A DNA stretch of 48,317 nt from a virus, in IMG/VR virus record IMGVR_UViG_3300047661_000028, positions 1 through 48,317 of that record; one strand, written 5' to 3'. This document shows, in pieces, positions 6,553-45,904 of the stretch; within the stretch, counting starts at the first letter, position 1, and each line of letters begins with the position of its first letter. Position numbers and translations under genes: made by a program. The notes beneath the pieces are model-generated. The model was not told where the DNA came from. It saw only the letters and a program-made list of their open reading frames with translations, and did no database searches.

Positions 6553-6879
6553 ATGAAATCACACATGAACCCAGCGGTACGCATGACAACCAAAGAGAAA
6601 CTCGCAATGGGGAAAGTAATCGACGCGGAGATACAGCGCCGCATGACCGAGGTGGACACCCGGTACCGCGAAATACAAGCGGAAGCATCGCGGCGAGCGC
6701 TGATACTTGCCGTGTTTTCCGTTTGGCAAGCGTATGGAATGGGCAAGAAACGGATTGGCAAATACCTCGCAGAACTCGACAAATGGGGCGAAATGGCTCT
6801 GAAAGATAGCACATGGGAGGACGAAATGTGTGCGGCACTTAAAACAATCGGCGTGAATTTTTATAAGGAAGTGGACTAA
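6553..6879 (+). CDS. Conserved-type phage hypothetical protein
   Basis: A 108-residue mostly helical, charged protein that I do not recognise. It begins directly after the helicase stop, and its own stop overlaps the dcm start, so it belongs to the same operon. No motif, signal peptide or membrane segment is visible. Confidence 0.65.
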   Translation: MKSHMNPAVRMTTKEKLAMGKVIDAEIQRRMTEVDTRYREIQAEASRRALILAVFSVWQAYGMGKKRIGKYLAELDKWGEMALKDSTWEDEMCAALKTIGVNFYKEVD

Positions 6880-8093
6880 TGTTTCTTACTCATTTATCGC
6901 TTTTTTCCGGAATTGGGGGTCTTGACCTCGCCGGCGAATTAGCGGGATTTGAAACCGTAGGACAGTGTGAATGGGCAGATTTCCCTCACCAAGTACTTGA
7001 CAAACATTGGCCGGACGTGCCGAAATGGCGCGATATTAGAACGTTAACAGGAGAAGATTTCTATGAAAGAACAGGACTTAAAACCGTGGACATCATCAGC
7101 GGAGGCTTCCCTTGCCAGCCTTTTAGCGTTGCCGGGAAGCGACGAGGCAAAGCAGATGACCGTTACCTCTGGCCTGAAATGCTTAGAGTCATATCAGAAC
7201 TACAACCCAATTGGGTTATTGGTGAGAACGTTGCTGGAATCGTCTCAATGGGCGAGTCCGCACCGTTTTCTAACTTGGAAAGTGACACCACTGGCAGCAC
7301 AGAGGAAAAAATGGTACTTGAGGAAATCTGCCAAAATATTGAAAACCTCGGTTACGAAGTCCAACCGATTATTATTCCAGCTTGCAGTGTCAAAGCCCCA
7401 CACCAACGATACCGAACCTTCATTGTTGCCCACACCAACCGCAATGGACGCGACTTTACAAGTCAAGGGCAAAGCGGGGGCAAAGGGTCACCATTCAATT
7501 CAGTTGTCGCACTTGGCGAACTCAGGCGCGTTATTGTCGGAGAATCCGATAGCGGAGCAGGACAGGTTGCGGAGTTTGGGGTTACTGAGCAAAGCGGAGA
7601 AAAACGACCTATGGCTCGGAACGCCGACAGCATCAATGACGAAAAGATCAGGCAACTTCAAGGCGGGGAGAGAACCGAATCCGGCGGAATATGTGCAGAT
7701 GTGGCCGACACCGACAACGCAGGAAACCGAGCATCCGAATGCGACACTGACGGAAACCGGGCGGAGAGCGGTCAAAAACGGGCAAAGCAGCCACAGCCTC
7801 GGACTTGCGGATGCGGTGACGATGTACCCAACACCGACAGCGAGGGATTACAAGGACACCGGGGAAAACGCCAACCTTTACCGAAACGAGCGTCAGAGTG
7901 GTCAACTTGGGATAGTAGTAAAGCGCCTGACTTCGGAAATTGGGAGTTTGAACCCGACGTGGGTCGAGTGGCTAATGGGGTTTCCAATAGGGTGGACCGA
8001 CTTAAATGCCTCGGAAATGCAGTAGTACCACAACAGGCATATACCGTTTTCAAGGCAGTATATGACATTGAGAGTGGTGAGCAGGATGCCTAA
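6879..8093 (+). CDS. dcm: DNA (cytosine-5-)-methyltransferase
   Basis: A 404-residue C5 DNA methyltransferase. Motif I is LFSGIGGLDLA (8-18), the catalytic Cys79 lies in GGFPCQPFS (motif IV), ENV is at 116-118 (motif VI), HQRYR is near 173 (motif VIII), and motif X is LGNAVVPQ near 380. Residues about 185-350 are hydrophilic and contain the variable target-recognition region. It probably modifies phage DNA against host restriction. No cognate endonuclease is adjacent. The gene is overprinted by another long ORF (7063-8025). Confidence 0.95.
   Translation: MFLTHLSLFSGIGGLDLAGELAGFETVGQCEWADFPHQVLDKHWPDVPKWRDIRTLTGEDFYERTGLKTVDIISGGFPCQPFSVAGKRRGKADDRYLWPEMLRVISELQPNWVIGENVAGIVSMGESAPFSNLESDTTGSTEEKMVLEEICQNIENLGYEVQPIIIPACSVKAPHQRYRTFIVAHTNRNGRDFTSQGQSGGKGSPFNSVVALGELRRVIVGESDSGAGQVAEFGVTEQSGEKRPMARNADSINDEKIRQLQGGERTESGGICADVADTDNAGNRASECDTDGNRAESGQKRAKQPQPRTCGCGDDVPNTDSEGLQGHRGKRQPLPKRASEWSTWDSSKAPDFGNWEFEPDVGRVANGVSNRVDRLKCLGNAVVPQQAYTVFKAVYDIESGEQDA
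7063..8025 (+). CDS. ORF overprinting dcm in another frame (LPTPTA / WVEWLMGFPIGWTD protein)
   Basis: A 320-codon open frame lies wholly inside dcm. It begins with ATG 7063, preceded by AGGAGA (7049-7054) at 8 bases, which is a good ribosome site. The product has repeated PTPTA-type motifs (LLPTPTAMD, MWPTPTTQE, MYPTPTARD), the segments LTWKV and TKSNRLLFQLA, and ends with WVEWLMGFPIGWTD. In dcm the last stretch is read as the pre-motif-X region ending DRL. I recall such proteins being annotated beside phage C5 methyltransferases. The best evidence that this frame is used is a separate copy of its C-terminal signature in the next gene. Function is unknown, and expression is not proven. Confidence 0.5.
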   Translation: MKEQDLKPWTSSAEASLASLLALPGSDEAKQMTVTSGLKCLESYQNYNPIGLLVRTLLESSQWASPHRFLTWKVTPLAAQRKKWYLRKSAKILKTSVTKSNRLLFQLAVSKPHTNDTEPSLLPTPTAMDATLQVKGKAGAKGHHSIQLSHLANSGALLSENPIAEQDRLRSLGLLSKAEKNDLWLGTPTASMTKRSGNFKAGREPNPAEYVQMWPTPTTQETEHPNATLTETGRRAVKNGQSSHSLGLADAVTMYPTPTARDYKDTGENANLYRNERQSGQLGIVVKRLTSEIGSLNPTWVEWLMGFPIGWTDLNASEMQ

Positions 8094-8328
8094 TAGTACA
8101 TCAATACCGATGTATCCGACACCAACAACCGGGGCGGGTTTATGCGGTGGCACCGGGAGCTTCCAACAGCTTCAGGCTTTGAAAGAAGCGGGAGCGATTA
8201 CAGAGGAAGAACGCCGGAGTATGTCGGCGGGAAACGGTGGGCAGTTAAACCCTTCGTGGGTTGAGTGGCTGATGGGTTTTCCAATAGGATGGACAGATGT
8301 ATATGGGGGCGAACCAGATGCCGAATAA
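8086..8328 (+). CDS. Small stand-alone protein with the WVEWLMGFPIGWTD signature
   Basis: An 80-residue protein (from ATG 8086, with GTGAGCAGG upstream; ATG 8062 is in frame). It contains MYPTPTTGAGLCGG, then LNPSWVEWLMGFPIGWTD, the same signature as the C-terminus of the ORF overprinting dcm. The equivalent methyltransferase frame here is broken by TGA (CGA in dcm), so only this frame is intact. It overlaps both dcm and the polymerase gene by a few bases. Function is unknown; association with the methyltransferase is likely. Confidence 0.65.
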   Translation: MPNSTSIPMYPTPTTGAGLCGGTGSFQQLQALKEAGAITEEERRSMSAGNGGQLNPSWVEWLMGFPIGWTDVYGGEPDAE

Positions 8329-32662: not shown

Positions 32663-35600
32663 GTGAAAACTTTATTTGAACTATGCAAGCCACGTCAAAG
32701 CGTTTTTGATGAAAAGGAACGCGAGGATGTACTAAACTTATCTGATCTGATAGATGGTAAAATTGACTCAAACTCATTTTTCGACGAAAACTATCTTACC
32801 AACGGTATGGCAGTATTATTTGATGCAGCCTTTAAACGTTTCGTAGGAGAAGGTGCGGCTGGGGTTATTAAGTTAACTCAGGCTATGGGTGGAGGCAAGA
32901 CCCATAATATGCTAGCACTCGGGTTAATTGCCGCAAACCCTGATTATCGTGAGAAAATCATGCCTGATGGTGAAAAATATAGAAAGTTAGGCAAAGTTAA
33001 AGTAGTTGCATTTACAGGACGTGAAAGTGATGCTCCACTGGGAATTTGGGGTGCAATAGCTGAACAACTTGGGAAAAAAGAGATGCTCAGTCAGTATTAC
33101 AGCCCACTTGCTGCGCCAGGTGAAACTGCATGGATGAAACTACTATCAGGCGAACCTTTATTAATTTTGATAGACGAGCTTCCACCATATTTAGAAAATG
33201 CCAAATCAAAAACAATAGGAAACTCAGATTTGTGCAATGTTACATCAACTGCACTTGCCAATTTATTTTCAGCTCTTGGTAAAGGGCAACTTTCTAATGT
33301 CTGCCTAGTAATATCGGATTTGAAAGCAACTTACGAAAGTGGTAGTGAACTGATTCGCTCATCATTCAAAAATCTTGAGAATGAGGTCAACCGTAGTGCT
33401 TTAAATATAGAGCCTGTCGGCAGTACATCTGATGAGGTTTATTACATATTACGTAAGAGATTGTTTGAAAATATGCCGGCGGCAAGTGAAATTAATCAAG
33501 TCGCGCTTGGTTATCAAGAGGCAGTTTCTAATGCAAAGAAGATGGGCTTCACAAATGTAGCACCTGAGCATTTATACACAGGAATTAAAGATAGCTATCC
33601 ATTCCACCCTTCAATTAGAGATTTGTACGCAAGATTTAAAGAAAATCCTGGCTTTCAACAAACAAGAGGGCTTATTAGGCTTATGCGTCAAATTGTAGCA
33701 GGATTATATACGGATAGCGGCAAGAAAGCAAAAGACAAATATCTTATCAATGTGTTTGACTTTGATTTGAATGATCGCGGTATGCTAACAACAGTAACGC
33801 AAATCAAACCTGAACTTTCAAATGCAATTGCTCATGATATTGCATCAAATGGAAGATCAATAGCGGAGGAAATTGATACACAGTATCAACAAAATCTTGT
33901 AAGTGATGTTAGCAAGCTTATATTAGTGGCTTCCCTCGCAAATGTTCCCAATGCATTGCTCGGTCTTACACTTAGCGAAGTTATTGGAGATCTTTGTGAA
34001 CCAAACAGAGATATTGCCGGGCTCAAAATGGCACTTGATGAGTTCCAAATGAGGGCTTGGTATTTAGAACATGACAAGGAAGGTAAACTATTCTTTAAAA
34101 ACACAAAAAACATGATAGCTGAACTGTATTCATATGTTGAAGGCTATGACAATGATGGCGTGAAAGCTACTACATTAAAGGTATTCTTAACAGATAAATT
34201 TAAGCCAACTGCAGGCGATTGCTATCAAGAGCTATTGATATTCCCTGCAGTTGACGAAATAAATTTAACGGCGGATAAGGTATCACTTGTACTATTTGAA
34301 CCATATACAGGCATAGGTCTGCACCCGGAACTTCAGAAATTTTACGAGAATACTTTATATAAAAATCGTGTGATGTTTCTTTCAGGTAGCAGAGATACAA
34401 TGAATAGGTTGTATGGCGCTGCTAAAGAATTAAAGGCAATCGAAAGAATAATTTCTAATATGCGAGATGAGAAAGTACCGGAGGACAACCAGCAGTATCA
34501 GCTGGCTCAGGATACTCGAATTAAAAAAATAGCAGCTGTTCTTAGTGCTGCTCAGCAGACATTTGGGGTGCTTTATTACCCTAATAAAAATGGAATTCAG
34601 AATGCTGGATTTTCGATGGAGTTTAAGGGGAATAATTATAATGGTGAAGACCAAATACGCAAGCTCCTTCTTGAAAAGCAAAAGCTGACTGATAAGACGA
34701 TTGATGATACAATGCGACGCAAGTGTGAGGACAGGCTCTTTACCCGTAAAGAAATGCGGCTTTCAGAGATTAAAGATAGAGCTGCTACAGAAACATCTTG
34801 GCAATGGTGTCATCCAAGGACCGTCGACGCCTTGCTTGCAAACTGCGTTGAAAAGGACCTCTGGCGTGTTCACGGTGAGTATGTAGAAAAGGGTCCATTT
34901 GAAAAAGACCCAACAAGCGTAACGATATCGCAAAAAGCTGAAAATGAGGAAACAGGTAAAGTCACACTTCGCTTAATGCCAAAGTTTGGCGATAAGATTT
35001 ATTACGAGGTTGGAGCAGAAGCTACTACGAGCTCATTGGCAGTTGAAGACCCGAATAACTTTGAAACTGCAGAGTTAAAGGTTTCCTTTCTGTGCGTTGA
35101 TAGTGTCGGTGAGCATCCAACAGGCGCGCCGACACTTTGGAGACGTGATATAACAATTAGATATAAAATTGTTGACACTGGAACTGGACAACAATTACGC
35201 TTGGAAACACAACCCGGAGTAAAAATAAAATACACAACTGATGGCTCGGATCCTAAGGAAAATGGCGGAATCTATGACGGCGAGTTTGTTATTCCTGCAA
35301 ATACTACATTCGTGCAGGCTGTGGCCGAATATGATGGTGGATATTTTGCACCACAATCTATACGAATCGATAGCAAAAAGAAAAAGGAACTGATAATAGA
35401 TAAAACAAGACCCCTTATTGTAAGGCGTTCCTTTAAGGCTAAGGATACGAAGGAAAGTTATGACAATATAGAAGCGTTCAAAAAATACTCAGATACTCTT
35501 CGCGATGTTAGAATTGTATTGTTCAAATTAGATGATAAAGGGAATGATAGTGGCTATATAGAACTGAACATTGATACAAAGATTGCTACAAAGCCTGAAA

Positions 35601-35776
35601 TGGTTGAAATAGCTATTGACAATCTTAAAGATTCATTCATTACTAATGGTAGGGCAAATATTGAATTTGAATGTGGTAGTGCGTCATTTAAGACTGGGCA
35701 AGATTTTTATGACTTTGCAAATGAAAAACAAATTAGTTTGTCTGAATTTAGGCAAGAGGAGTTTATAGTTAAATGA
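32663..35776 (+). CDS. DUF499 family defence-associated ATPase
   Basis: A 1037-residue DUF499 ATPase. Walker A is AMGGGKTH (74-81), and Walker B is LLILIDELPPYL (around 166-177, D171 E172). The large middle region is helical. Residues about 850-905 (GVKIKYTTDGSDPKENGGIY) form a chitobiase-C-like beta domain; the last 120 residues are an acidic C-terminal domain. It is the first gene of a four-gene operon with DUF3780, DUF1156 and an SNF2 helicase, a set recurrent in defence islands. The ATPase probably acts as a motor or sensor. GTG 32663 follows GGGGGC. Confidence 0.88.
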   Translation: MKTLFELCKPRQSVFDEKEREDVLNLSDLIDGKIDSNSFFDENYLTNGMAVLFDAAFKRFVGEGAAGVIKLTQAMGGGKTHNMLALGLIAANPDYREKIMPDGEKYRKLGKVKVVAFTGRESDAPLGIWGAIAEQLGKKEMLSQYYSPLAAPGETAWMKLLSGEPLLILIDELPPYLENAKSKTIGNSDLCNVTSTALANLFSALGKGQLSNVCLVISDLKATYESGSELIRSSFKNLENEVNRSALNIEPVGSTSDEVYYILRKRLFENMPAASEINQVALGYQEAVSNAKKMGFTNVAPEHLYTGIKDSYPFHPSIRDLYARFKENPGFQQTRGLIRLMRQIVAGLYTDSGKKAKDKYLINVFDFDLNDRGMLTTVTQIKPELSNAIAHDIASNGRSIAEEIDTQYQQNLVSDVSKLILVASLANVPNALLGLTLSEVIGDLCEPNRDIAGLKMALDEFQMRAWYLEHDKEGKLFFKNTKNMIAELYSYVEGYDNDGVKATTLKVFLTDKFKPTAGDCYQELLIFPAVDEINLTADKVSLVLFEPYTGIGLHPELQKFYENTLYKNRVMFLSGSRDTMNRLYGAAKELKAIERIISNMRDEKVPEDNQQYQLAQDTRIKKIAAVLSAAQQTFGVLYYPNKNGIQNAGFSMEFKGNNYNGEDQIRKLLLEKQKLTDKTIDDTMRRKCEDRLFTRKEMRLSEIKDRAATETSWQWCHPRTVDALLANCVEKDLWRVHGEYVEKGPFEKDPTSVTISQKAENEETGKVTLRLMPKFGDKIYYEVGAEATTSSLAVEDPNNFETAELKVSFLCVDSVGEHPTGAPTLWRRDITIRYKIVDTGTGQQLRLETQPGVKIKYTTDGSDPKENGGIYDGEFVIPANTTFVQAVAEYDGGYFAPQSIRIDSKKKKELIIDKTRPLIVRRSFKAKDTKESYDNIEAFKKYSDTLRDVRIVLFKLDDKGNDSGYIELNIDTKIATKPEMVEIAIDNLKDSFITNGRANIEFECGSASFKTGQDFYDFANEKQISLSEFRQEEFIVK

Positions 35777-36342
35777 GTGAGAAGCAAATAACCTTGGGAT
35801 TTGGGTTTCGTCCCGAGGAGAGCTTACACCACTTTTTAGTTTGCGTGCCTGCAAAAACCGATGCAACTGTTACAATATATGAGCGGTTTTCTTGGCAAAG
35901 CGATGTGCGTGAGCAAAAAATAAATATGTATGATGTGGATAAAGCCAAGGCTGAACTTTCAAAACATAAGTGGAAGCTTTTGACGGAGGTATTACAAACA
36001 GAGTTTAACAGCAGATTAAAAAAAGAAAAGAAGCCGCAAGGTAAGTTTATCGTAGGGCAAACACCAGTTGAGCGATTGTTTGGAAAAGAGTTATTACTCT
36101 TAGTATGGGCAATTGAGGACTGCGACCCTGCCGTTATACCAACTGCTACCCGTAACTGGTTAGGGCTTGCTCCTGAGGAACGTTGGTGGTTGTTTACAAT
36201 GACAAATGCAGCTACAGGAGGACTACATGACCGCAGTGGTTGGCGAAAAGCTCTTAGATACGCCTTGACAGAAAATCCAATAGAGGAGCAAAGACAGTAT
36301 TCGCTTTTTGACATCATGATTAAAAAAGGTGAAGAAGAATAA
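35773..36342 (+). CDS. DUF3780 family defence-associated protein
   Basis: A 189-residue DUF3780 protein: LGFGFRPEESLHHFLVCVPA at the N-terminus, then ERWWLFTMTNAATGG and GWRKALRYALTENP. It has no recognised catalytic motif and is known mainly as partner of DUF499/DUF1156 proteins. It overlaps the DUF499 stop by four bases, which implies coupled translation, and is likely a specificity or scaffold subunit. Confidence 0.85.
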   Translation: MSEKQITLGFGFRPEESLHHFLVCVPAKTDATVTIYERFSWQSDVREQKINMYDVDKAKAELSKHKWKLLTEVLQTEFNSRLKKEKKPQGKFIVGQTPVERLFGKELLLLVWAIEDCDPAVIPTATRNWLGLAPEERWWLFTMTNAATGGLHDRSGWRKALRYALTENPIEEQRQYSLFDIMIKKGEEE

Positions 36343-36360
36343 TTCTAGGAGTGTGAATAC

Positions 36361-39255
36361 ATGGCACAAGATAGATCGTTTATAGAAGTGCAATTTCCTG
36401 TTTCAAAGGTGTCTAAGGAGAGTTATAAAGAACGAAAAGCTGTGCAAAGTCAAACATTAACAGGTTTGGGAAAGTGGTGGGGCAGAAAACCGCTTGTATT
36501 AGTACGTGCTGCTATACTAGGGCTACTTATGCCTGCATCAGATGATGCTAAAAAGGATATGGATATATTCCTTAAAATAATGACTATGGATAAAAAGGGC
36601 TTGCTTCATCGCAAGTCTAAAGCAGTATCTGCGGCTGATGTGTTCAATGTTCTCACCAGTCGGGAAAAGGAAATATACTTTGTAGGTACTACTACTCCAA
36701 AATGGAAAGATGAAATTACAGCTGATGAAAAGATGGAGGCAACAAATAAAGCGTGGAATCGCTTAACCTATGATAAAAAGTTAGCCTACTGTGTTCGTCC
36801 AGAAGAAGCAGAAAATATAGATATATCCCAATGGAAAGAGATCAATACACATCTTAGCACAAGCGCTGATGATTTGCAGGAACTTATCGAACAGCTTGGT
36901 ATCAAGAAATTTGGGCATAGAGCCGTGGTAGGAGACTGCTTTTGCGGGGGTGGCTCTATTCCATTTGAAGCAGCAAGAATGGGTAATGACGTCTTTGGAT
37001 CAGACTTAAACCCTATCGCAGGATTGCTTACTTGGGCTGACCTTAACATTGCAGATACAAGTGATGAGGAAATAGAAAATCTGCGAGTATTTCAACAAAA
37101 AGTATATGATGAAGTTGATAAGAAAGTTTTAGAGTGGGGTATCGAATCCAATGAAGATGGTGACAGAGCAAATGTATATCTGTACTGTACTGAAACTATA
37201 TGCCCTGAATGTCATTATAAACTGCCATTAGTCTCGTCATGGGTGGTTGGGGTCGGGAGTATGACGATTGCCACTCCTAAGGATAATGGTCTAGATGGTT
37301 TTGATATAGAAATAGAAAGTGGAGTTACAAGTGAACAATTAAAATCTGCCAATGAACTGGTAACTGTTAAAAACGGGAGCATATTTTGCCCTCATTGTAA
37401 AAAAACCGTGCCTATTTCAGCGCTTCGTAAAGACACGAGTGAAGGTTATGGATTAAGGCAGTGGAATAAGGATGAATTCACTCCTCGTAATGATGATACA
37501 TTTAAAGAAAGACTATATTGTGTAAGATACACTCATCAATATGTAGACAAAAATGGAAAGATTAAATCTGAACGTTATTATACTGCACCAACAGAAAAAG
37601 ATTTTGAAAGAGAACAAAAAGTAAAAGAGTTACTATCAGACAGATTCAAAGAGTGGCAGAAAAAGGGTTATATTCCATCAAATGAAGTTGAAGATGGTAA
37701 TAAAACAAATGAAATTATGCGTACCCGTGGATGGACACATTGGCATCAGCTTTTTAACGCAAGGCAATTATTAATGCTTGGATTAATACAGAGAAACATT
37801 GATGCTATTGCGGGAAATACTTTGGAACGCGTAATCGGACTATTACTAATCCATAGATGTTGTGATTGGAATAGCAAACTATGCAGATGGGGTGTAGGAC
37901 AGGCAAGAGAGTCAATGGCTCAAACTTTTTATAATCAAGCATTCAATACAATGTGGGAATACGGCTCAAGAGCATTGCCATTACTGCAAGGGGTTTATGA
38001 ATTGAACTTTGAAGCAGTAAGTAAGTCAAAAATAAAGGAAAAAGTAATTAAGATTGACGATGCTAGAATAATTAGTAATCAATGCGACCTATGGATTACT
38101 GATCCACCTTATGCTGACGCGGTTAATTACCATGAACTTTCGGAGTTTTTTCTCGCGTGGGATAAAAAACTACTTAAAAAAGCATTTCCAGAGTGGTATA
38201 CAGATAGCAAACGAGTGCTTGCTGTAAAAGGGCGAGAGCAATCTTTTAAACAAAGCATGGTCGAAATATATACTAATTCAGCTAACAATATGCCAGACAA
38301 TGGATTACAGATTATTATGTTCACTCATCAAGACGTTAGCGTATGGGCAGACTTAGCATTTATCGTTTGGTCGGCAGGCTTGCAGGTTACAGCGGCATGG
38401 AATATTGCAACTGAAACAGAGGCAAGTGGTTTAAAAGATGGTAACTATGTTAAGGGTACTGTGCTTCTCGTTTTGCGCAAACAAACCTCAACAAAATCAG
38501 CATATTTAGATGAAATTTACCCTGACATAGAGGAAGAAGTAAAAAAGCAGATAGACAGCATGCGCTCTCTAGATGATAAAGAGGAGCCTAATTTTTCAGA
38601 TGCCGATTATATTTTAGCAGCGTATGCCGCTGCATTAAAAGTGCTAACCTCTGTAAAACGCATTGAGGATATAGATGTTGAATATGAACTTTCACGAGAT
38701 AGGAAAAATGGAGAATTATCACCTGTTGCAAAACTCATTGAGTCGGCAACTAAAATAGCGTATGACCAGCTTATACCAGCAGATTTTGATAGTTTTATTT
38801 GGCGTTCACTTTCCCCTGACGAAAGGCTTTACATTAAAGGCTTGGAACTTGAAAAAAATAATATATATCAGGTATCAGGCTATCAAGAATTAGCCCGTGG
38901 TTTCGGTGTGAATGAATATAAAGATTTTATGGAAAGCTCAAAGGCAAATGCTGCGAGATTAAAAACACCAAAAGAATGGGCGAACCGTAATATTGGTGGA
39001 GAGGTCGGATTTGGGGTCACACTACTTCGTAATGTGTTAATGGCCATATATCTGGCAGAAAAAGAAGACAACGTACAGTCAGGCAAAAACTGGCTTAAAA
39101 ACGAGGTTAGTGACTACTGGAACAAGAGGGAGCAAATTTGCGAGTTCTTAAATTATATATCAACTTTTGAACCTATAAATAATATGGAACATTGGCAAGG
39201 TGCCGCAAAGGTAGCAGGCATACTTAAAGAGCTTGTTAAAAATGATGGCGTGTAA
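36361..39255 (+). CDS. DUF1156 DNA methyltransferase with zinc ribbons
   Basis: A 964-residue DUF1156 protein, an adenine- (or cytosine-) specific DNA methyltransferase. The N-terminal GKWWGRKPL box and the SAM motif GDCFCGGGSIPFEAARMGND (191-210) are followed by catalytic DPPY at 581-584. Between them are cysteine pairs CPECHYKLP (about 281) and CPHCKKTVP (about 344), a zinc-ribbon domain inserted in the methyltransferase. It should mark self DNA, while the ATPase and helicase subunits act on unmodified DNA. AGGAGTG precedes ATG 36361. Confidence 0.9.
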   Translation: MAQDRSFIEVQFPVSKVSKESYKERKAVQSQTLTGLGKWWGRKPLVLVRAAILGLLMPASDDAKKDMDIFLKIMTMDKKGLLHRKSKAVSAADVFNVLTSREKEIYFVGTTTPKWKDEITADEKMEATNKAWNRLTYDKKLAYCVRPEEAENIDISQWKEINTHLSTSADDLQELIEQLGIKKFGHRAVVGDCFCGGGSIPFEAARMGNDVFGSDLNPIAGLLTWADLNIADTSDEEIENLRVFQQKVYDEVDKKVLEWGIESNEDGDRANVYLYCTETICPECHYKLPLVSSWVVGVGSMTIATPKDNGLDGFDIEIESGVTSEQLKSANELVTVKNGSIFCPHCKKTVPISALRKDTSEGYGLRQWNKDEFTPRNDDTFKERLYCVRYTHQYVDKNGKIKSERYYTAPTEKDFEREQKVKELLSDRFKEWQKKGYIPSNEVEDGNKTNEIMRTRGWTHWHQLFNARQLLMLGLIQRNIDAIAGNTLERVIGLLLIHRCCDWNSKLCRWGVGQARESMAQTFYNQAFNTMWEYGSRALPLLQGVYELNFEAVSKSKIKEKVIKIDDARIISNQCDLWITDPPYADAVNYHELSEFFLAWDKKLLKKAFPEWYTDSKRVLAVKGREQSFKQSMVEIYTNSANNMPDNGLQIIMFTHQDVSVWADLAFIVWSAGLQVTAAWNIATETEASGLKDGNYVKGTVLLVLRKQTSTKSAYLDEIYPDIEEEVKKQIDSMRSLDDKEEPNFSDADYILAAYAAALKVLTSVKRIEDIDVEYELSRDRKNGELSPVAKLIESATKIAYDQLIPADFDSFIWRSLSPDERLYIKGLELEKNNIYQVSGYQELARGFGVNEYKDFMESSKANAARLKTPKEWANRNIGGEVGFGVTLLRNVLMAIYLAEKEDNVQSGKNWLKNEVSDYWNKREQICEFLNYISTFEPINNMEHWQGAAKVAGILKELVKNDGV

Positions 39256-39267
39256 TACAAGACATAG

Positions 39268-42054
39268 ATGACAGGTGGTGAGGTTTTGATAAATAGATTT
39301 TCGTCACGAGTTAAAAGGCTTGATCGCGCTTTTTTAAATGACAGGTTAAAAAGTGCGAAGAGTTATGACCGTATTGCTGGATTTTTCAGCTCCTCGATTC
39401 TTGAGGTTGCAGGGGAAGAAATCGAGAGCATTACAGGTACTGTGCGCCTTATTTGCAATGCCTGTCTTGAAAAAGACGATGTTACCACTGCAACCGCAGC
39501 GGCAAACGCTCTACGCAAAGAATGGTGTGCAGGTGAACCGGAGCAGAAATTTGAAAATGCCCGCCCAAGACTAAAAAAACTATATGAATTATTAAAAAGC
39601 AAAAAGTTGATAGTGCGTGTGCTACCAAATGATGTGTTTGGTTTAATTCATGGAAAAGCAGGCGTCATTACATTTTCAAGCAACAGCAAAACTTCATTTA
39701 TTGGTAGTGTAAATGAAACTTACTCCGGTTGGCGATTAAATTATGAAATGCTATGGGAAGACGATAGTGATGAAGCAGTAAAATGGGTGCAGGATGAATT
39801 TGATTTTTTCTGGCAGCATCCATCAGCAATACCACTTTCGGATTTTGTTGTTGAAGATATTGGTCGTATATCTGGGCGCTTTGTTATTGACGAAATAGAA
39901 GAGTGGAAAGCCTCACCAGATCCGGCGCAAGTAGTTGTTGAGTCCCCAGTCTATCGTAGAGAATTAGGCCTTTGGGAACATCAAAAGTATTTTGTTGATA
40001 CTGCTTTTCGTGATCACCAAACAAGCTATGGAGCAAGATATGTACTTGCTGACCAAGTAGGTCTTGGTAAAACAGTTCAGCTCGCACTAGCTGCACAACT
40101 TATGGCTTTGTGCGGTGGCAAGCCGGTTTTGATTATTGTCCCGAAGACATTGGTTTGGCAGTGGCAGGATGAAATGAAAAACCTGCTTGGTATGCCATCA
40201 GCAGTTTGGACTGGTAAAGAGTGGCAAGATGAAAATGACATAAAGTATCCTCCAACAGACGACATAAGAAAATGTCCTCGTAAGGTCGGAATCATTTCGC
40301 AAGGGCTTGTTGTAAATGGACGTGAGGAATACATAGAGCAACTTTTGTCTATGCAGTATGAATGCGTTATCGTTGATGAGGCACATCGTTCAAGACGTAA
40401 AAATTTAGGTGAAGGCAAAGAAAACGAAAAGCCACAGCCTAATAATTTGATGGACTTCCTTTTGAAAATATCAAAGGATACACACAGCATGCTGCTTGCA
40501 ACTGCAACACCTGTTCAAATGTACCCTATTGAAGCTTGGGACTTGCTTTATATTTTATCACAGAAAAATGATAGTGTACTTGGTAGCGAATTGTCCAAAT
40601 GGCGTACAAATCCTCAAAAAGCATTAAACCTAATAATGGACAAAGAACGTATTAGTTCAAAAATTGACGGGCTATTGGAACAATGCGAATGGTTAAGAAA
40701 TCCCCTGCCACCTGCATCTGAAGACCCTATGAACTTTGGCGTGTTAAGGCGTAATTTAGGATTGTCAGATGATACTTTTGTAATAAAGCCTGATGCCATT
40801 AGAGAACTAATATCGGGTAACAGTCCCGACAGCAGGCGCATTGGAAGAATACTAGAAAACGGATTTATGCAAAACCATAATCCGTTTATTCGTCATATAA
40901 TCAGGCGTACGCGAGAGTCTTTAGAGACGAACAAAAACCCCGAAACAGGCGAGCCATATTTAAAGCGTATAGAAGTTGTTTTAATGGGCGAAAAGGATAG
41001 TGAAGCAATTAAACTTACACCTTATTTAAAGGAAGCATATGAGTGTGCTGAGCAGTTTTGCGAATTGCTTGGTAAACGTGTGCGTGGTGGTGGATTTATC
41101 AAAACACTACTATTAAAAAGAGTTGGAAGCACTATGATAGCAGGCCTTTCCACTGCTGAAAAAATGTTAAATTGGGGTATTCAATCTGAAACAGTCTTTG
41201 ATGAAGATGATGATGAATACGAAGATGATGAATCAAAACGTGGAAAGAAAAAGATAAATTCGGAAGATGAAAAATACAGTGAAGTAAAAGATTTAACAGA
41301 TGATGAACGTGAATGCTTACGGGGTTTTATTAAAAAACTCGATGCAAACAAGGATAAAGATCCTAAGTATGAGCTTGTTCTTTCGCTACTTAATAATAAA
41401 GGCTTTGCTGAAAAAGGTTGCATTATTTTTTCGCAGTATTATGACTCAGCATTTTGGGTTGCGACTGAATTGTCTAATGATTTTAAAGGCAAGGTTATTG
41501 GACTCTATGCTGGTGGCGATAAATCCGGGACAATATGTGATGGAATTTTTAAGAAATGCACAAAAGAGGAAATCAAACGCAGAGTAAAGATCCGGGAGAT
41601 AAAAATTCTTATAGGAACGGATGCGGCGTCTGAGGGTTTGAATTTGCAAACACTTGGTACGCTTATAAATCTTGACTTGCCATGGAACCCGACAAGGCTT
41701 GAACAGAGAAAAGGTCGTATACAGCGTATTGGGCAGGAAAACGATAAGGTATACATTTACAATATGCGATACAAGGATTCTGTTGAAGATAGAGTGCATG
41801 ATATGCTCTCTCAAAGGCTACAAAACATTAGCAGTATATTTGGACAGTTACCCGATGTACTTGAAGATGTATGGGTGCAAGTAGCGCTTAATAATAAGGC
41901 TGAAGCAGAAAAAATTATTGATGCTGTTCCAAAACAACATCCTTTTGAACTTCGATATGAGCGACAGGCAATCGGAAATGTCGACTGGGAAAGCTGCACC
42001 ACCGTATTAAGTGAAAAAGAAAAATATAAAAGTTTGCTGGATGGCTGGAAATAA
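39268..42054 (+). CDS. SNF2 helicase with N-terminal PLD nuclease-like domain
   Basis: A 928-residue protein. Residues about 1-200 are phospholipase-D-like: HGKAGVITF (H128) and SFIGSVNETYSGW form one HKD-type motif. The SNF2 helicase follows, with LADQVGLGKT (about 257-266), VDEAHRSRR (about 368), LLATATPVQ (about 408), SQYYDSAFW (about 722), GTDAASEGLNLQ (about 787) and QRKGRIQRIGQ (about 813). It is the presumed effector/translocase of the four-gene operon. ATG 39268 lacks a clear ribosome site; TTG 39286 is too near GAGG. Confidence 0.9.
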   Translation: MTGGEVLINRFSSRVKRLDRAFLNDRLKSAKSYDRIAGFFSSSILEVAGEEIESITGTVRLICNACLEKDDVTTATAAANALRKEWCAGEPEQKFENARPRLKKLYELLKSKKLIVRVLPNDVFGLIHGKAGVITFSSNSKTSFIGSVNETYSGWRLNYEMLWEDDSDEAVKWVQDEFDFFWQHPSAIPLSDFVVEDIGRISGRFVIDEIEEWKASPDPAQVVVESPVYRRELGLWEHQKYFVDTAFRDHQTSYGARYVLADQVGLGKTVQLALAAQLMALCGGKPVLIIVPKTLVWQWQDEMKNLLGMPSAVWTGKEWQDENDIKYPPTDDIRKCPRKVGIISQGLVVNGREEYIEQLLSMQYECVIVDEAHRSRRKNLGEGKENEKPQPNNLMDFLLKISKDTHSMLLATATPVQMYPIEAWDLLYILSQKNDSVLGSELSKWRTNPQKALNLIMDKERISSKIDGLLEQCEWLRNPLPPASEDPMNFGVLRRNLGLSDDTFVIKPDAIRELISGNSPDSRRIGRILENGFMQNHNPFIRHIIRRTRESLETNKNPETGEPYLKRIEVVLMGEKDSEAIKLTPYLKEAYECAEQFCELLGKRVRGGGFIKTLLLKRVGSTMIAGLSTAEKMLNWGIQSETVFDEDDDEYEDDESKRGKKKINSEDEKYSEVKDLTDDERECLRGFIKKLDANKDKDPKYELVLSLLNNKGFAEKGCIIFSQYYDSAFWVATELSNDFKGKVIGLYAGGDKSGTICDGIFKKCTKEEIKRRVKIREIKILIGTDAASEGLNLQTLGTLINLDLPWNPTRLEQRKGRIQRIGQENDKVYIYNMRYKDSVEDRVHDMLSQRLQNISSIFGQLPDVLEDVWVQVALNNKAEAEKIIDAVPKQHPFELRYERQAIGNVDWESCTTVLSEKEKYKSLLDGWK

Positions 42055-42485: not shown

Positions 42486-43580
42486 ATGAATACTATTCCA
42501 ATACCAGTGCCTGAAATTCCTAAAGATGAAAGTCGAATTTTTGATATCACTATTGATCCGCTAGTCCGTTTAAGGACCATTGAAGCTGGAGAATTCGAAG
42601 ATATTGCTTGTCAATGGGCATCTGGATATTTGACTCAATATGATAATTACAAAAGTGTAGCGCAAATTGGTGGCTCTAAGGATTCAGGACGTGATATAGT
42701 TGCTTATCTTGATGATACTATGCAAACGTTTGATATATTTCAATGTAAAAGATATAAAGAACCACTTTCACCATCTGTATATTTGTCAGAGTTTGGAAAG
42801 CTTTGCTACTATACAATGATTGGAAAATATAATATACCTCGAAAATATTTTATTGTAGCAAGTAATGGCATTGGGCAAGATTTGAGATATTTGGTCGAGC
42901 ATACCTCGAAAATCAGCAAAGAGTTGGTTGATAATTGGAAAAAATACTGCGAGCCCAAAAACAAAATATTATCTGAAGGGTTACCGCTATCGTTGGAACT
43001 TAAGGATTATATAGAACATTTTGACTTTTCAACTGTTGCAGAGGTTGCACCAGTGACTTTAATTGAACAGTTTTCTAAAACAGGCTGGTACAAATATCAC
43101 TTCGGTGGGGGGCTAAAGCAACGGCCAAAGGTTGAGAAGCCACAGGAAACCCTCGGCGAGGACGAAGTAAAGATGAATTATGTTCGTCAATTATTACAAG
43201 TATATTCTAATCATGAAAACACTTCAATTAATGATGTTAAAGATCTTAAACCAAAGAAAAGGTTGCATAAACACTTTAAGCGACAAAGGGAATGCTTTCA
43301 CAGTGCACAAGCTTTAAAAAGGTTTTCAAGAGATGAGTTAATTAATGACGACGTCTATGATGATGCAAAAAATCAAGTGTATCATGGAGTTATTTCGACT
43401 TGTGAAGCTGATTATGATGATGACTTAAAGCGAGTAGATGAAACGGTTGATAGATCGCAGCTTCTTCCCATTAAAACTTCTGAACTAGGAGATATTAGTG
43501 TATTAGAAAAAAGTGGAATGTGTCATGAATTAGTCAACGATGGGGAGATGAGTTGGATATATGATGACGACGAAGATTAA
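42486..43580 (+). CDS. ABC-three-component effector with Mrr-like nuclease domain
   Basis: A 364-residue protein. Residues about 25-135 form a PD-(D/E)XK nuclease domain of Mrr type: E at AGEFEDIA, D in GGSKDSGRDIVAY (about 62-74), and Q-x-K in FQCKRYK (about 87-93). The C-terminal half, with QRECFHSAQALKRFSRDEL, matches the C-terminal domain typical of ABC-3C effectors. The acidic tail ends in DDDED. It would cut DNA once triggered by the ATPase partner. AGGGG lies before ATG 42486. The end overlaps the next gene by 20 bases. Confidence 0.8.
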   Translation: MNTIPIPVPEIPKDESRIFDITIDPLVRLRTIEAGEFEDIACQWASGYLTQYDNYKSVAQIGGSKDSGRDIVAYLDDTMQTFDIFQCKRYKEPLSPSVYLSEFGKLCYYTMIGKYNIPRKYFIVASNGIGQDLRYLVEHTSKISKELVDNWKKYCEPKNKILSEGLPLSLELKDYIEHFDFSTVAEVAPVTLIEQFSKTGWYKYHFGGGLKQRPKVEKPQETLGEDEVKMNYVRQLLQVYSNHENTSINDVKDLKPKKRLHKHFKRQRECFHSAQALKRFSRDELINDDVYDDAKNQVYHGVISTCEADYDDDLKRVDETVDRSQLLPIKTSELGDISVLEKSGMCHELVNDGEMSWIYDDDED

Positions 43581-44055
43581 AATTTTCAACTCACCAGAAG
43601 AAGTGGGCGTGAGAATCCTATTTATTTTAGCTCTTTGTGATAAAAGAATGAGTTCACAAAGGATTATGTATTATGATTACTTTATTTTACATTTAAATGA
43701 TATTGACAATATGTATGTTAGTTTACATCCGAATAATCCAAATCATTCTTCTGAAATAGCTGTTAGACGGGATACTATAAATCAAGGATTAAAGCTTACA
43801 ATTTCCAAGGGGTTGTTAGATGTAAAATATTCGAAAACAGGAATTTATTATCAAAAGACCAATATAACAGAGCCTTTTTTGCAATTCTTTTCAAATGGAT
43901 ATGTAGAACAATTAAAGAATAATATTATTATAGTTAATGATAAATTTTCAAATTACTCCGATGAACAAATCTATAAATACATTAACAAAAATATAGGTTC
44001 TTGGACAGGAGAATTCGAAAAAGAAAATTTTCCGGGAGGTGAGCTAAATGATTAA
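43561..44055 (+). CDS. ABC-three-component middle component
   Basis: A 164-residue protein. VGVRILFILALCDKRMSSQR and the later KLTISKGLLDVKYSKTGIYY resemble a winged helix of the middle components of ABC-3C systems (MC2-like). It probably bridges the nuclease and the ATPase. It overlaps both neighbours (20 and 8 bases), so the three proteins are produced together. Confidence 0.7.
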   Translation: MMTTKIKIFNSPEEVGVRILFILALCDKRMSSQRIMYYDYFILHLNDIDNMYVSLHPNNPNHSSEIAVRRDTINQGLKLTISKGLLDVKYSKTGIYYQKTNITEPFLQFFSNGYVEQLKNNIIIVNDKFSNYSDEQIYKYINKNIGSWTGEFEKENFPGGELND

Positions 44056-45904
44056 GTGTGGAATAGAAATAAAGAAAATGATCTTACGAGGAATTGGAAA
44101 AGAAAGTGCCATATTAACATTTAGTGCTGGCTTAAATGTTGTTGCCGGGGCCTCGGACACTGGGAAATCTTTTGCCTATGAATGTATCAATTATGCTTTG
44201 GGTGCTACCAACGTTCCAGAAATGCCCAACGAAGCTGTTGGGTATGATACCGTTCTTTTGGAGTTTGTTGAAAAAATATCTGCTCAAACAATCACGTTGA
44301 AACGAAGTTTGAAAGAGCCGGAAAAAACCAATATATATTATGCTTTTTCCGATATTGATCATATAATTGATGCAAATTTTGAGACACTTTCATTTGATTC
44401 CAAAGCGAAAAATAGTTTATCCTCTAAACTCTTGAATTTATGTAATTGCACATATGAGAACGTATTAAAATCAACATCACAAGGTAATACTGAAGCATTT
44501 ACTTTTAGAAAATTTGTTTATTTGACAATGCTAAGCGAAGAAAGAATTGTTCAACGTAATTCACCAATATTTTTGGGGAGTACGCATCGTGATGCAAATT
44601 CCCCGAAAGAAATATCAACTTTTTTCACAGTGCTATCTGGCTCGGATTATAAAAAATATGTCAAAATTGAAAGTGCCGAAATTAAGAAAGCTCAGCTTAA
44701 GGGAAGAATAGAAGAATTATCTCTTATGTGCAATGAGTTGCGGCTTGAAGTCGTTGATTTGGAAAAATCTATTGACGAAAGCAAAGTGGCAAATGTTAAA
44801 GAAAAAATCGCTGAATTAGGAATTGTTATTGAGCAACACAAAGCAATTGTAGAACAGGAGGAAGAGAAACATAAATATTGGGTTGTACAACTTAGGGCTA
44901 TAACAAGTGAAAAATCAAGGATAGCGGATAATCTATCAAAATTTCGTTTGTTGAAGAAGAACTATGAATCTGACATTGAAAGACTAGATTTTATTGAACA
45001 ATCTCATAATTTTACTGATCAATTGGTTAGTGTAAAATGTCCAATATGTAACTCCCTAATGGAGAAAGAAATAAGCAATCATCCCAAAGAAATCTATTTT
45101 GTAGCTATTGATAAGGAAAAGCAGAAACTGATGGTTCATCTATCTGATTTAGAAGATACGATATTAGATTTTGAAAATGATTTATCTGAATGCACTAATG
45201 AGATAAGCGATAAGCAAACTAGTATTCAAGGAATAGAAGATTTTTTGCAAGCACAATCATTATCTATTTCTAAAACTTTATCCGATTACGAGAGCTATCT
45301 GAAAATACGAGATAAGTTTGTCGAAATTCAAGGCGGTAGGAAGAAACTATTCGATATGAATAGCCGTATTAGCGAACTGTCTGATAGAATTGATAATACT
45401 AAATCTAATGCAAACAAAGTCGAAATTAAAAAGTTGTCTGATGAGTTAATGTCTGAATTTTGCAATATTGTAAGGGTGTTTCTTGAGAACTGGGATTTTA
45501 TTGATAAAGATGAAGTTTTGTTTGACAAAAAATCTAGTGATGTTATTGTTTCCAATAAATTAAAAGCTTCGTATGGTAAAGGTGCTAGAGCAATTATAAA
45601 CTCAGCTTTTATTTTATCTATAATGAAATTTTGTATTGAACGTGGACTCCCCCATCCTGGATTTGTCATTTTAGACTCTCCGTTGACAACATATAAAGAA
45701 AAAGATAAAAGGCAAAAGGCAAAGAATGAAGAAGTGAATAAGAGTGTAAAAGACTCGTTTTTTTACGATTTGGCATCAATATCAAATGAGTACCAAATTA
45801 TCGTTTTTGACAATGAAGTACCGCCAAATGACTTGAAAAACATCACATACCATCATTTTACAGGAAATATTGAAATAGAACGCACCGGATTTATTCCCAA
45901 CTAA
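44048..45904 (+). CDS. Rad50/SMC-like ATPase of the ABC-three-component system (DUF3732-like)
   Basis: A 618-residue SMC-type ATPase. Walker A GASDTGKS is at about 34-41, a long coiled coil follows (about 205-470) with the hook-like CPICN at about 331, then the signature-like region SYGKGARAIINSAFILSIM near 513-531 and Walker B FVILDSPL at about 539. Its shape is that of a Rad50-like clamp that senses DNA ends or structures. The protein is the last gene of the operon. Lamassu-type SMC proteins are a related alternative. Confidence 0.85.
   Translation: MIKCGIEIKKMILRGIGKESAILTFSAGLNVVAGASDTGKSFAYECINYALGATNVPEMPNEAVGYDTVLLEFVEKISAQTITLKRSLKEPEKTNIYYAFSDIDHIIDANFETLSFDSKAKNSLSSKLLNLCNCTYENVLKSTSQGNTEAFTFRKFVYLTMLSEERIVQRNSPIFLGSTHRDANSPKEISTFFTVLSGSDYKKYVKIESAEIKKAQLKGRIEELSLMCNELRLEVVDLEKSIDESKVANVKEKIAELGIVIEQHKAIVEQEEEKHKYWVVQLRAITSEKSRIADNLSKFRLLKKNYESDIERLDFIEQSHNFTDQLVSVKCPICNSLMEKEISNHPKEIYFVAIDKEKQKLMVHLSDLEDTILDFENDLSECTNEISDKQTSIQGIEDFLQAQSLSISKTLSDYESYLKIRDKFVEIQGGRKKLFDMNSRISELSDRIDNTKSNANKVEIKKLSDELMSEFCNIVRVFLENWDFIDKDEVLFDKKSSDVIVSNKLKASYGKGARAIINSAFILSIMKFCIERGLPHPGFVILDSPLTTYKEKDKRQKAKNEEVNKSVKDSFFYDLASISNEYQIIVFDNEVPPNDLKNITYHHFTGNIEIERTGFIPN

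Follow-up and report, generated by a model that had tools for sequence, protein, structure and literature searches.

A phage C5-cytosine DNA methyltransferase gene whose overprinted second frame probably encodes the recognition and motif IX subunit

The closest described relatives of the locus considered here are C5-cytosine DNA methyltransferases whose parts are distributed over chains in different ways. M.HhaI is one chain read in one frame, and in M.AquI two polypeptides complete one enzyme. For M.EcoHK31I, Lee, Kam and Shaw are said to have described in 1995 a small chain read from another frame within the gene of the large chain, and we take M.EaeI to be organized likewise. Here we analysed a virus record of 48.3 kb (48,317 nucleotides (nt); IMG/VR IMGVR_UViG_3300047661_000028), called the window below, in which a methyltransferase gene, dcm, is overprinted by a second frame, so that two chains in two frames are expected where M.HhaI has one of each. 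Judging from sequence, the product of this locus is very probably a C5-cytosine DNA methyltransferase of two subunits, with the recognition and motif IX subunit read from the overprinted frame. One stretch of DNA would give both chains of a single enzyme: the dcm frame (alpha) would supply the catalytic large domain with motifs I-VIII and X, and the overprinted frame (beta), initiated at 7063 from its own ribosome-binding site, would supply the small domain with a new N-terminus, PTPT modules and motif IX. The two chains would then assemble into one active enzyme, which may methylate targets recognized by the PTPT modules and would probably shield the phage DNA or prophage against host restriction. 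The locus contains the following features.

6879..8093, + strand: dcm (alpha), C5-cytosine DNA methyltransferase large (catalytic) domain, by Pfam, match to M.HhaI, AlphaFold model and Foldseek
7049..7054, + strand: AGGAGA, Shine-Dalgarno-like sequence of the overprinted gene, by sequence, 8 nt 5' of the ATG at 7063
7063..8025, + strand: overprinted gene (beta), 320 residues, PHROG phrog_1008, +1 frame relative to dcm
7132..7416, + strand: conserved N-terminal block of beta (LASL..LPGS..AK.MT.TSG...LTWK....RLLFQLA), lying over dcm motifs IV-VIII, by synonymous constraint and consensus
7423..7947, + strand: beta recognition region of PTPT-opened modules of about 40 residues, putative target-recognition domain, by module spacing and position between motifs VIII and IX
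7948..8001, + strand: motif IX (LNPTWVEWLMGFPIGWTD), beta frame, by constraint and alignments
8010..8030, + strand: motif X (LGNAVVP), dcm frame, 62 nt from the motif IX start and one frame off
8086..8328, + strand: stand-alone 80-residue copy of the beta C-terminus, with one PTPT module and motif IX, without alpha frame and without motif X
8245..8298, + strand: motif IX of the stand-alone copy, by motif scan

A preliminary description of this DNA had reported 320 open codons inside dcm (the product of which has 404 residues) with an AGGAGA and an ATG of their own, and the frame and its coordinates hold. The repeated PTPTA-type motifs and the terminal signature that it mentioned are also seen in the translation, as LLPTPTA, GTPTA, MWPTPTT and MYPTPTA and as the C-terminal end LNPTWVEWLMGFPIGWTDLNASEMQ. 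The same DNA translates in the dcm frame as EPDVGRVANGVSNRVDRLK, right before LGNAVVP, in agreement with the earlier reading that dcm uses it as the stretch ahead of motif X.

The alpha chain belongs among the C5 methyltransferases by its motifs I, IV (PCQ), VI (ENV), VIII and X, and its invariant residues are G11-G14, P78-C79-Q80, E116-N117-V118, R177/R179 and G379-N380. With a family profile it matches M.HhaI (1.8e-34), motifs I-VIII being aligned and then motif X, while Pfam DNA_methylase covers only residues 5-189 (5.6e-39). Neither motif IX nor a folded target-recognition domain is present in this chain, and motif IX sits in the +1 frame. Confidence in the AlphaFold model is high over most of the large domain and over the motif X helix, and Foldseek matched the model to M.HaeIII and M.HhaI; residues from about 223 to 379 have a predicted local distance difference test score (pLDDT) below 50 and are predicted to be disordered. 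According to this model, alpha would fold as a C5 large domain with no predicted folded recognition domain.

The end of the +1 chain, LNPxWVEWLMGFPxGWTD, is recognizable from its sequence as motif IX of the C5 methyltransferases. This assignment is helped by a natural single-chain arrangement in a Megaera plasmid (CP113869; L252:2029-3051), in which motif IX lies in the dcm chain with motif X directly after it and Pfam DNA_methylase extends over residues 3-333 of 340. The motif IX stretch of L252 coincides with the end of the Pfam profile and aligns with M.HhaI 270-314 in phmmer (conditional E 7e-4), a range that includes the motif IX stretch of M.HhaI, 270-290, and in hhalign the beta profile falls exactly on the same stretch of L252 (probability 97.6). 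IX and X are both in the +1 chain of other relatives (L125, L275 and L248, the last from Mycobacterium phage Phlei), of which L125 and L248 have a catalytic chain that stops after motif VIII. Since IX and X change chain in these four loci, the motif pieces are interchangeable between chains; the same parts are found in three arrangements across two chains, which would be expected of a divided enzyme but not of a separate regulator. L252 still has its PTPT modules in the +1 frame, although IX and X are in the catalytic frame. Another layout is found in L005 (Mycobacterium phage Llama gp74/gp75), where the catalytic frame consists of two overlapping genes and a shortened third frame ends in RANPVWIEWLMGFPPNWTDV.

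The order of parts in beta is the conserved N-terminal block, usually one to six PTPT modules, and motif IX. PTPT-type motifs are spaced by a median of 40 residues, and their number tracks the length of beta (r 0.73). By analogy with the recognition domain of M.HhaI, which likewise lies between motifs VIII and IX, the modules may recognize DNA.

The second question is whether beta is a selected gene. Loci were gathered with the +1 protein, and a separate set, meant to avoid bias, was gathered with the dcm-frame protein only. For the stop test, synonymous codons were shuffled within each gene over a 430-nt stretch beginning just ahead of motif IV. In the 79 dcm-fetched genes, shuffling predicts 368 stops in the +1 frame and 619 in the +2 frame, and none and 611, respectively, were observed; accordingly, the +1 frame was open in 79/79 genes, compared with 0.3/79 expected from shuffles that keep the dcm protein and codon usage. 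For the window's own dcm, the +1 frame was left open in 0/300 synonymous shuffles.

Third-base identity at fourfold-degenerate sites was compared in a non-redundant set of 130 genes. It was 0.290 ahead of the overlap (shuffled 0.276), 0.431 over motifs IV-VIII (0.278), 0.757 in the motif IX block (0.277) and 0.283 past the overlap (0.276). As genes had entered this set partly because their +1 frame showed the motif IX pattern, the test was rerun on the dcm-fetched set, which gave 0.329, 0.613, 0.580 and 0.323 for the same four regions against about 0.28 for the shuffles, the slight excess outside the overlap being what the relatedness of the sequences leads one to expect. Constraint in the beta N-terminal block (7132..7416) reached a z of 48 in the 130-gene set and 98.8 in the dcm-fetched set. 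The substitutions follow the same pattern: dcm third positions take 60-69% of pairwise substitutions outside the overlap and only 18% in the motif IX block, where 59% fall on dcm first positions (the third positions of beta). Variation in that block is lowest at the dcm third position (0.07 per codon; outside the overlap, 0.48-0.56) and highest at the beta third position. The stop, constraint and substitution tests agree that the +1 frame is a genuine gene under purifying selection of its own. The suggestion that the second frame is preserved in its own right is therefore borne out: synonymous variation is reduced mainly within the overlap, no orthologue has a stop in the +1 frame, and the frame is conserved in many phyla.

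This layout is widespread. When the +1 protein was searched for by tblastn, it turned up not only in phages of Paenibacillus, Bacteroides, Lacticaseibacillus, Mycobacterium and others but also in IMG/VR contigs (more than 590 stretches) and in bacterial genomes (275 stretches, some of them presumably prophages). By name, the best 80 of these 275 include Bacillota, Bacteroidetes, Proteobacteria, Planctomycetes, Treponema, Acidobacteria and more, and in nearly all 80, across many phyla, motif IX lies at +1 of the catalytic frame, as it does in 231/232 repeat-free loci with a scored motif. The gap between motifs IV and IX varies widely between loci and yet the +1 relation is fixed; therefore, insertions and deletions must have come in multiples of three. 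The two-frame layout is common to hundreds of phage and bacterial genes, usually with just one of the frames annotated. For example, the phrog_1008 profile, labelled ‘DNA methyltransferase’, matches P0001 (4.7e-32) and P0003 (1.1e-8), and SHELLY_56 of Paenibacillus phage Shelly is the same overprinted protein, annotated as ‘g55 internal gene’. Term searches of papers on Paenibacillus phages found no explanation of Shelly's internal gene, and literature searches found no description of an overlapping-frame methyltransferase layout in phages.

Several other explanations of the locus have to be weighed. One is that the amino acids and codon bias of dcm force an open and similar-looking +1 frame, and it is true that the +1 sequence is partly predictable from the conserved dcm motifs. 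Nevertheless, shuffles that preserve dcm keep the +1 frame neither open nor conserved, and the number of +2 stops is what these shuffles predict, so that this artefact, to which we assign hardly any probability, is already refuted unless something else, such as RNA structure, dictates the codons position by position. It is also improbable that a ribosome shifts from the dcm frame to the +1 frame, giving a single fusion of alpha, recognition region and motif IX. Both frames are open over a long stretch, and at the junction some relatives have poly-G or dinucleotide repeats, but motif X is read in the dcm frame, so that a full enzyme would need two shifts. Moreover, no junction repeat was noted in the window's gene, the beta N-terminal block is itself conserved, and the +1 open reading frame (ORF) has a conserved start region of its own, with Shine-Dalgarno-like sites at 22% of +1 ORF starts versus 11% in other frames; the commonest beta start preceded by such a site in the relatives is at -38 from motif IV.

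A somewhat less remote, though still unlikely, alternative is that the +1 protein is selected but separate, for instance a regulator or an anti-restriction factor that merely shares the DNA of dcm. In favour of this, its N-terminal part has no match to a known domain, and its distribution is as wide as that of this type of dcm. Against this, beta carries the motif IX that dcm lacks, IX and X move between the chains in relatives, and among the motif sites scanned no copy without a catalytic frame was seen except the small gene adjoining dcm. Beta had been proposed earlier to be either a methyltransferase partner or a regulator; because motif IX is in the +1 frame and not in the dcm frame, the evidence favours a partner over a regulator. 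The two-subunit enzyme, which we consider far more probable than these alternatives, has weaknesses as well. It offers no explanation for the conservation of the beta N-terminus, and, taken alone, the alignment of the short motif IX with M.HhaI is weak (the domain conditional E of 7e-4). The model of beta by itself is poor (pLDDT 55.8, predicted template modelling score 0.23), and it had no match above chance in the PDB with Foldseek; nor did a PDB sequence search with the beta profile give a match, or Pfam and NCBIfam scans anything above cut-off. A poor model of a lone chain fits a half-enzyme but proves nothing.

The small gene next to dcm (8086-8328) had been put forward as a sign that beta is maintained in its own right. 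The copy itself is as described, with PTPTT and LNPSWVEWLMGFPIGWTD, DNA that is 79% identical to 7941-8008 over 68 nt, and a methyltransferase-equivalent frame broken by a TGA where dcm has CGA. Its ORF of 80 residues has an alternative upstream ATG at 8062 and an SD-like (Shine-Dalgarno-like) GGTGAG a few nt upstream, and it contains neither motif X nor the beta N-terminus. However, of the 295 motif IX sites scanned, all others come with a catalytic frame, so that the search for signature proteins occurring without dcm yielded nothing else. The beta of another phage, L171, resembles it more closely in its last module and motif IX (76% identity) than the neighbouring beta does, and we think that it was left behind when a dcm 3' end was replaced, probably as a piece of the beta gene of a different phage. 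Since the copy is unique and looks like a recombination remnant, it says little about selection, and we rejected it as weak proof, also because the excess of changes at beta third positions is much alike in overlapped copies and in the stand-alone copy (0.54 vs 0.57); the overlap itself is the evidence. If expressed, the small gene could in principle act as an alternative recognition piece.

One clade of relatives carries simple repeats, namely G runs (7-11), AG (12-31 nt) and CA/AC (13-21 nt), mostly about 500-530 nt past motif IV. These loci are L094, L100, L108, L112, L115-L117, L127, L133, L135, L140, L142, L147-L149, L152, L154-L161, L163, L165 and L168-L170. Taking the catalytic frame as reference, motif IX is in frame 0 in 16 of them, in +1 in 9 and in +2 in 6, some being the same contig fetched twice. 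This pattern suggests phase variation by slipped-strand mispairing, which might connect or disconnect the two frames; a point against it is that no pair of near-identical contigs differing in repeat length was found, and assembly errors at the repeats are another possible source of the frame differences. L127, L135, L140, L142, L148 and their relatives have an extra degenerate motif IX-like stretch (TNPxLLEWLMGYExxFT) in the +1 frame before the repeat.

Elsewhere in the window, genes for DUF499, DUF3780, a DUF1156 methyltransferase and a PLD-helicase stand in a row (32663-42054) with strong PADLOC matches and form a candidate defence system. Matches to LmuA and LmuB (Lamassu) adjoin this row (42486-45904), and the left end (587-2586) has matches to AbiLi and AbiLii, an AAA ATPase and its partner.

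Long same-strand overlapping genes have rarely been established in bacteria or phages; here, selection is clear in both frames, and there are hundreds of examples. The locus is a direct model for two protein halves that share one DNA sequence, and the repeat-bearing clade renders frame-switching testable. By implication, many annotations as ‘DNA methyltransferase’ would cover half an enzyme, and dcm cloned alone may yield an inactive protein. We would give about even chances to the broader proposal of a very large and mostly unrecognised class of two-frame C5 methyltransferases with modular recognition overprinted on the catalytic gene and one repeat-switched, phase-variable clade.

In its working mode, the window's enzyme would be of a known kind, as far as motif content and gene layout can tell. 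As in M.AquI, two polypeptides would complete one enzyme, and the M.AquI-type split, with I-VIII in one chain and recognition, IX and X in the other, is found in the relatives L125 and L248; unlike in M.AquI, the window has motif X in the catalytic chain and the second chain overprinted on the first. The likeness to M.EcoHK31I is greater: by sequence, motif IX is in the predicted second polypeptide and motifs I-VIII and X are in the first, and by the geometry of the window, the second polypeptide would come from another frame inside the first gene, which is reportedly the defining trait of that type. A plasmid tblastn search for enterobacterial relatives resembling M.EcoHK31I gave nine matches, none of them enterobacterial. 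Unlike M.EcoHK31I, the gene in the window is a phage gene, with no restriction enzyme gene recognised beside it, and its recognition modules are apparently in the overprinted chain, whereas PMC3404938 places the predicted target-recognition domain of M.EcoHK31I in the larger subunit. The differences from the known two-chain enzymes lie in the occurrence in a phage, the size of the family, an apparently modular recognition region carried by the overprinted chain, and the existence of relatives with repeats.
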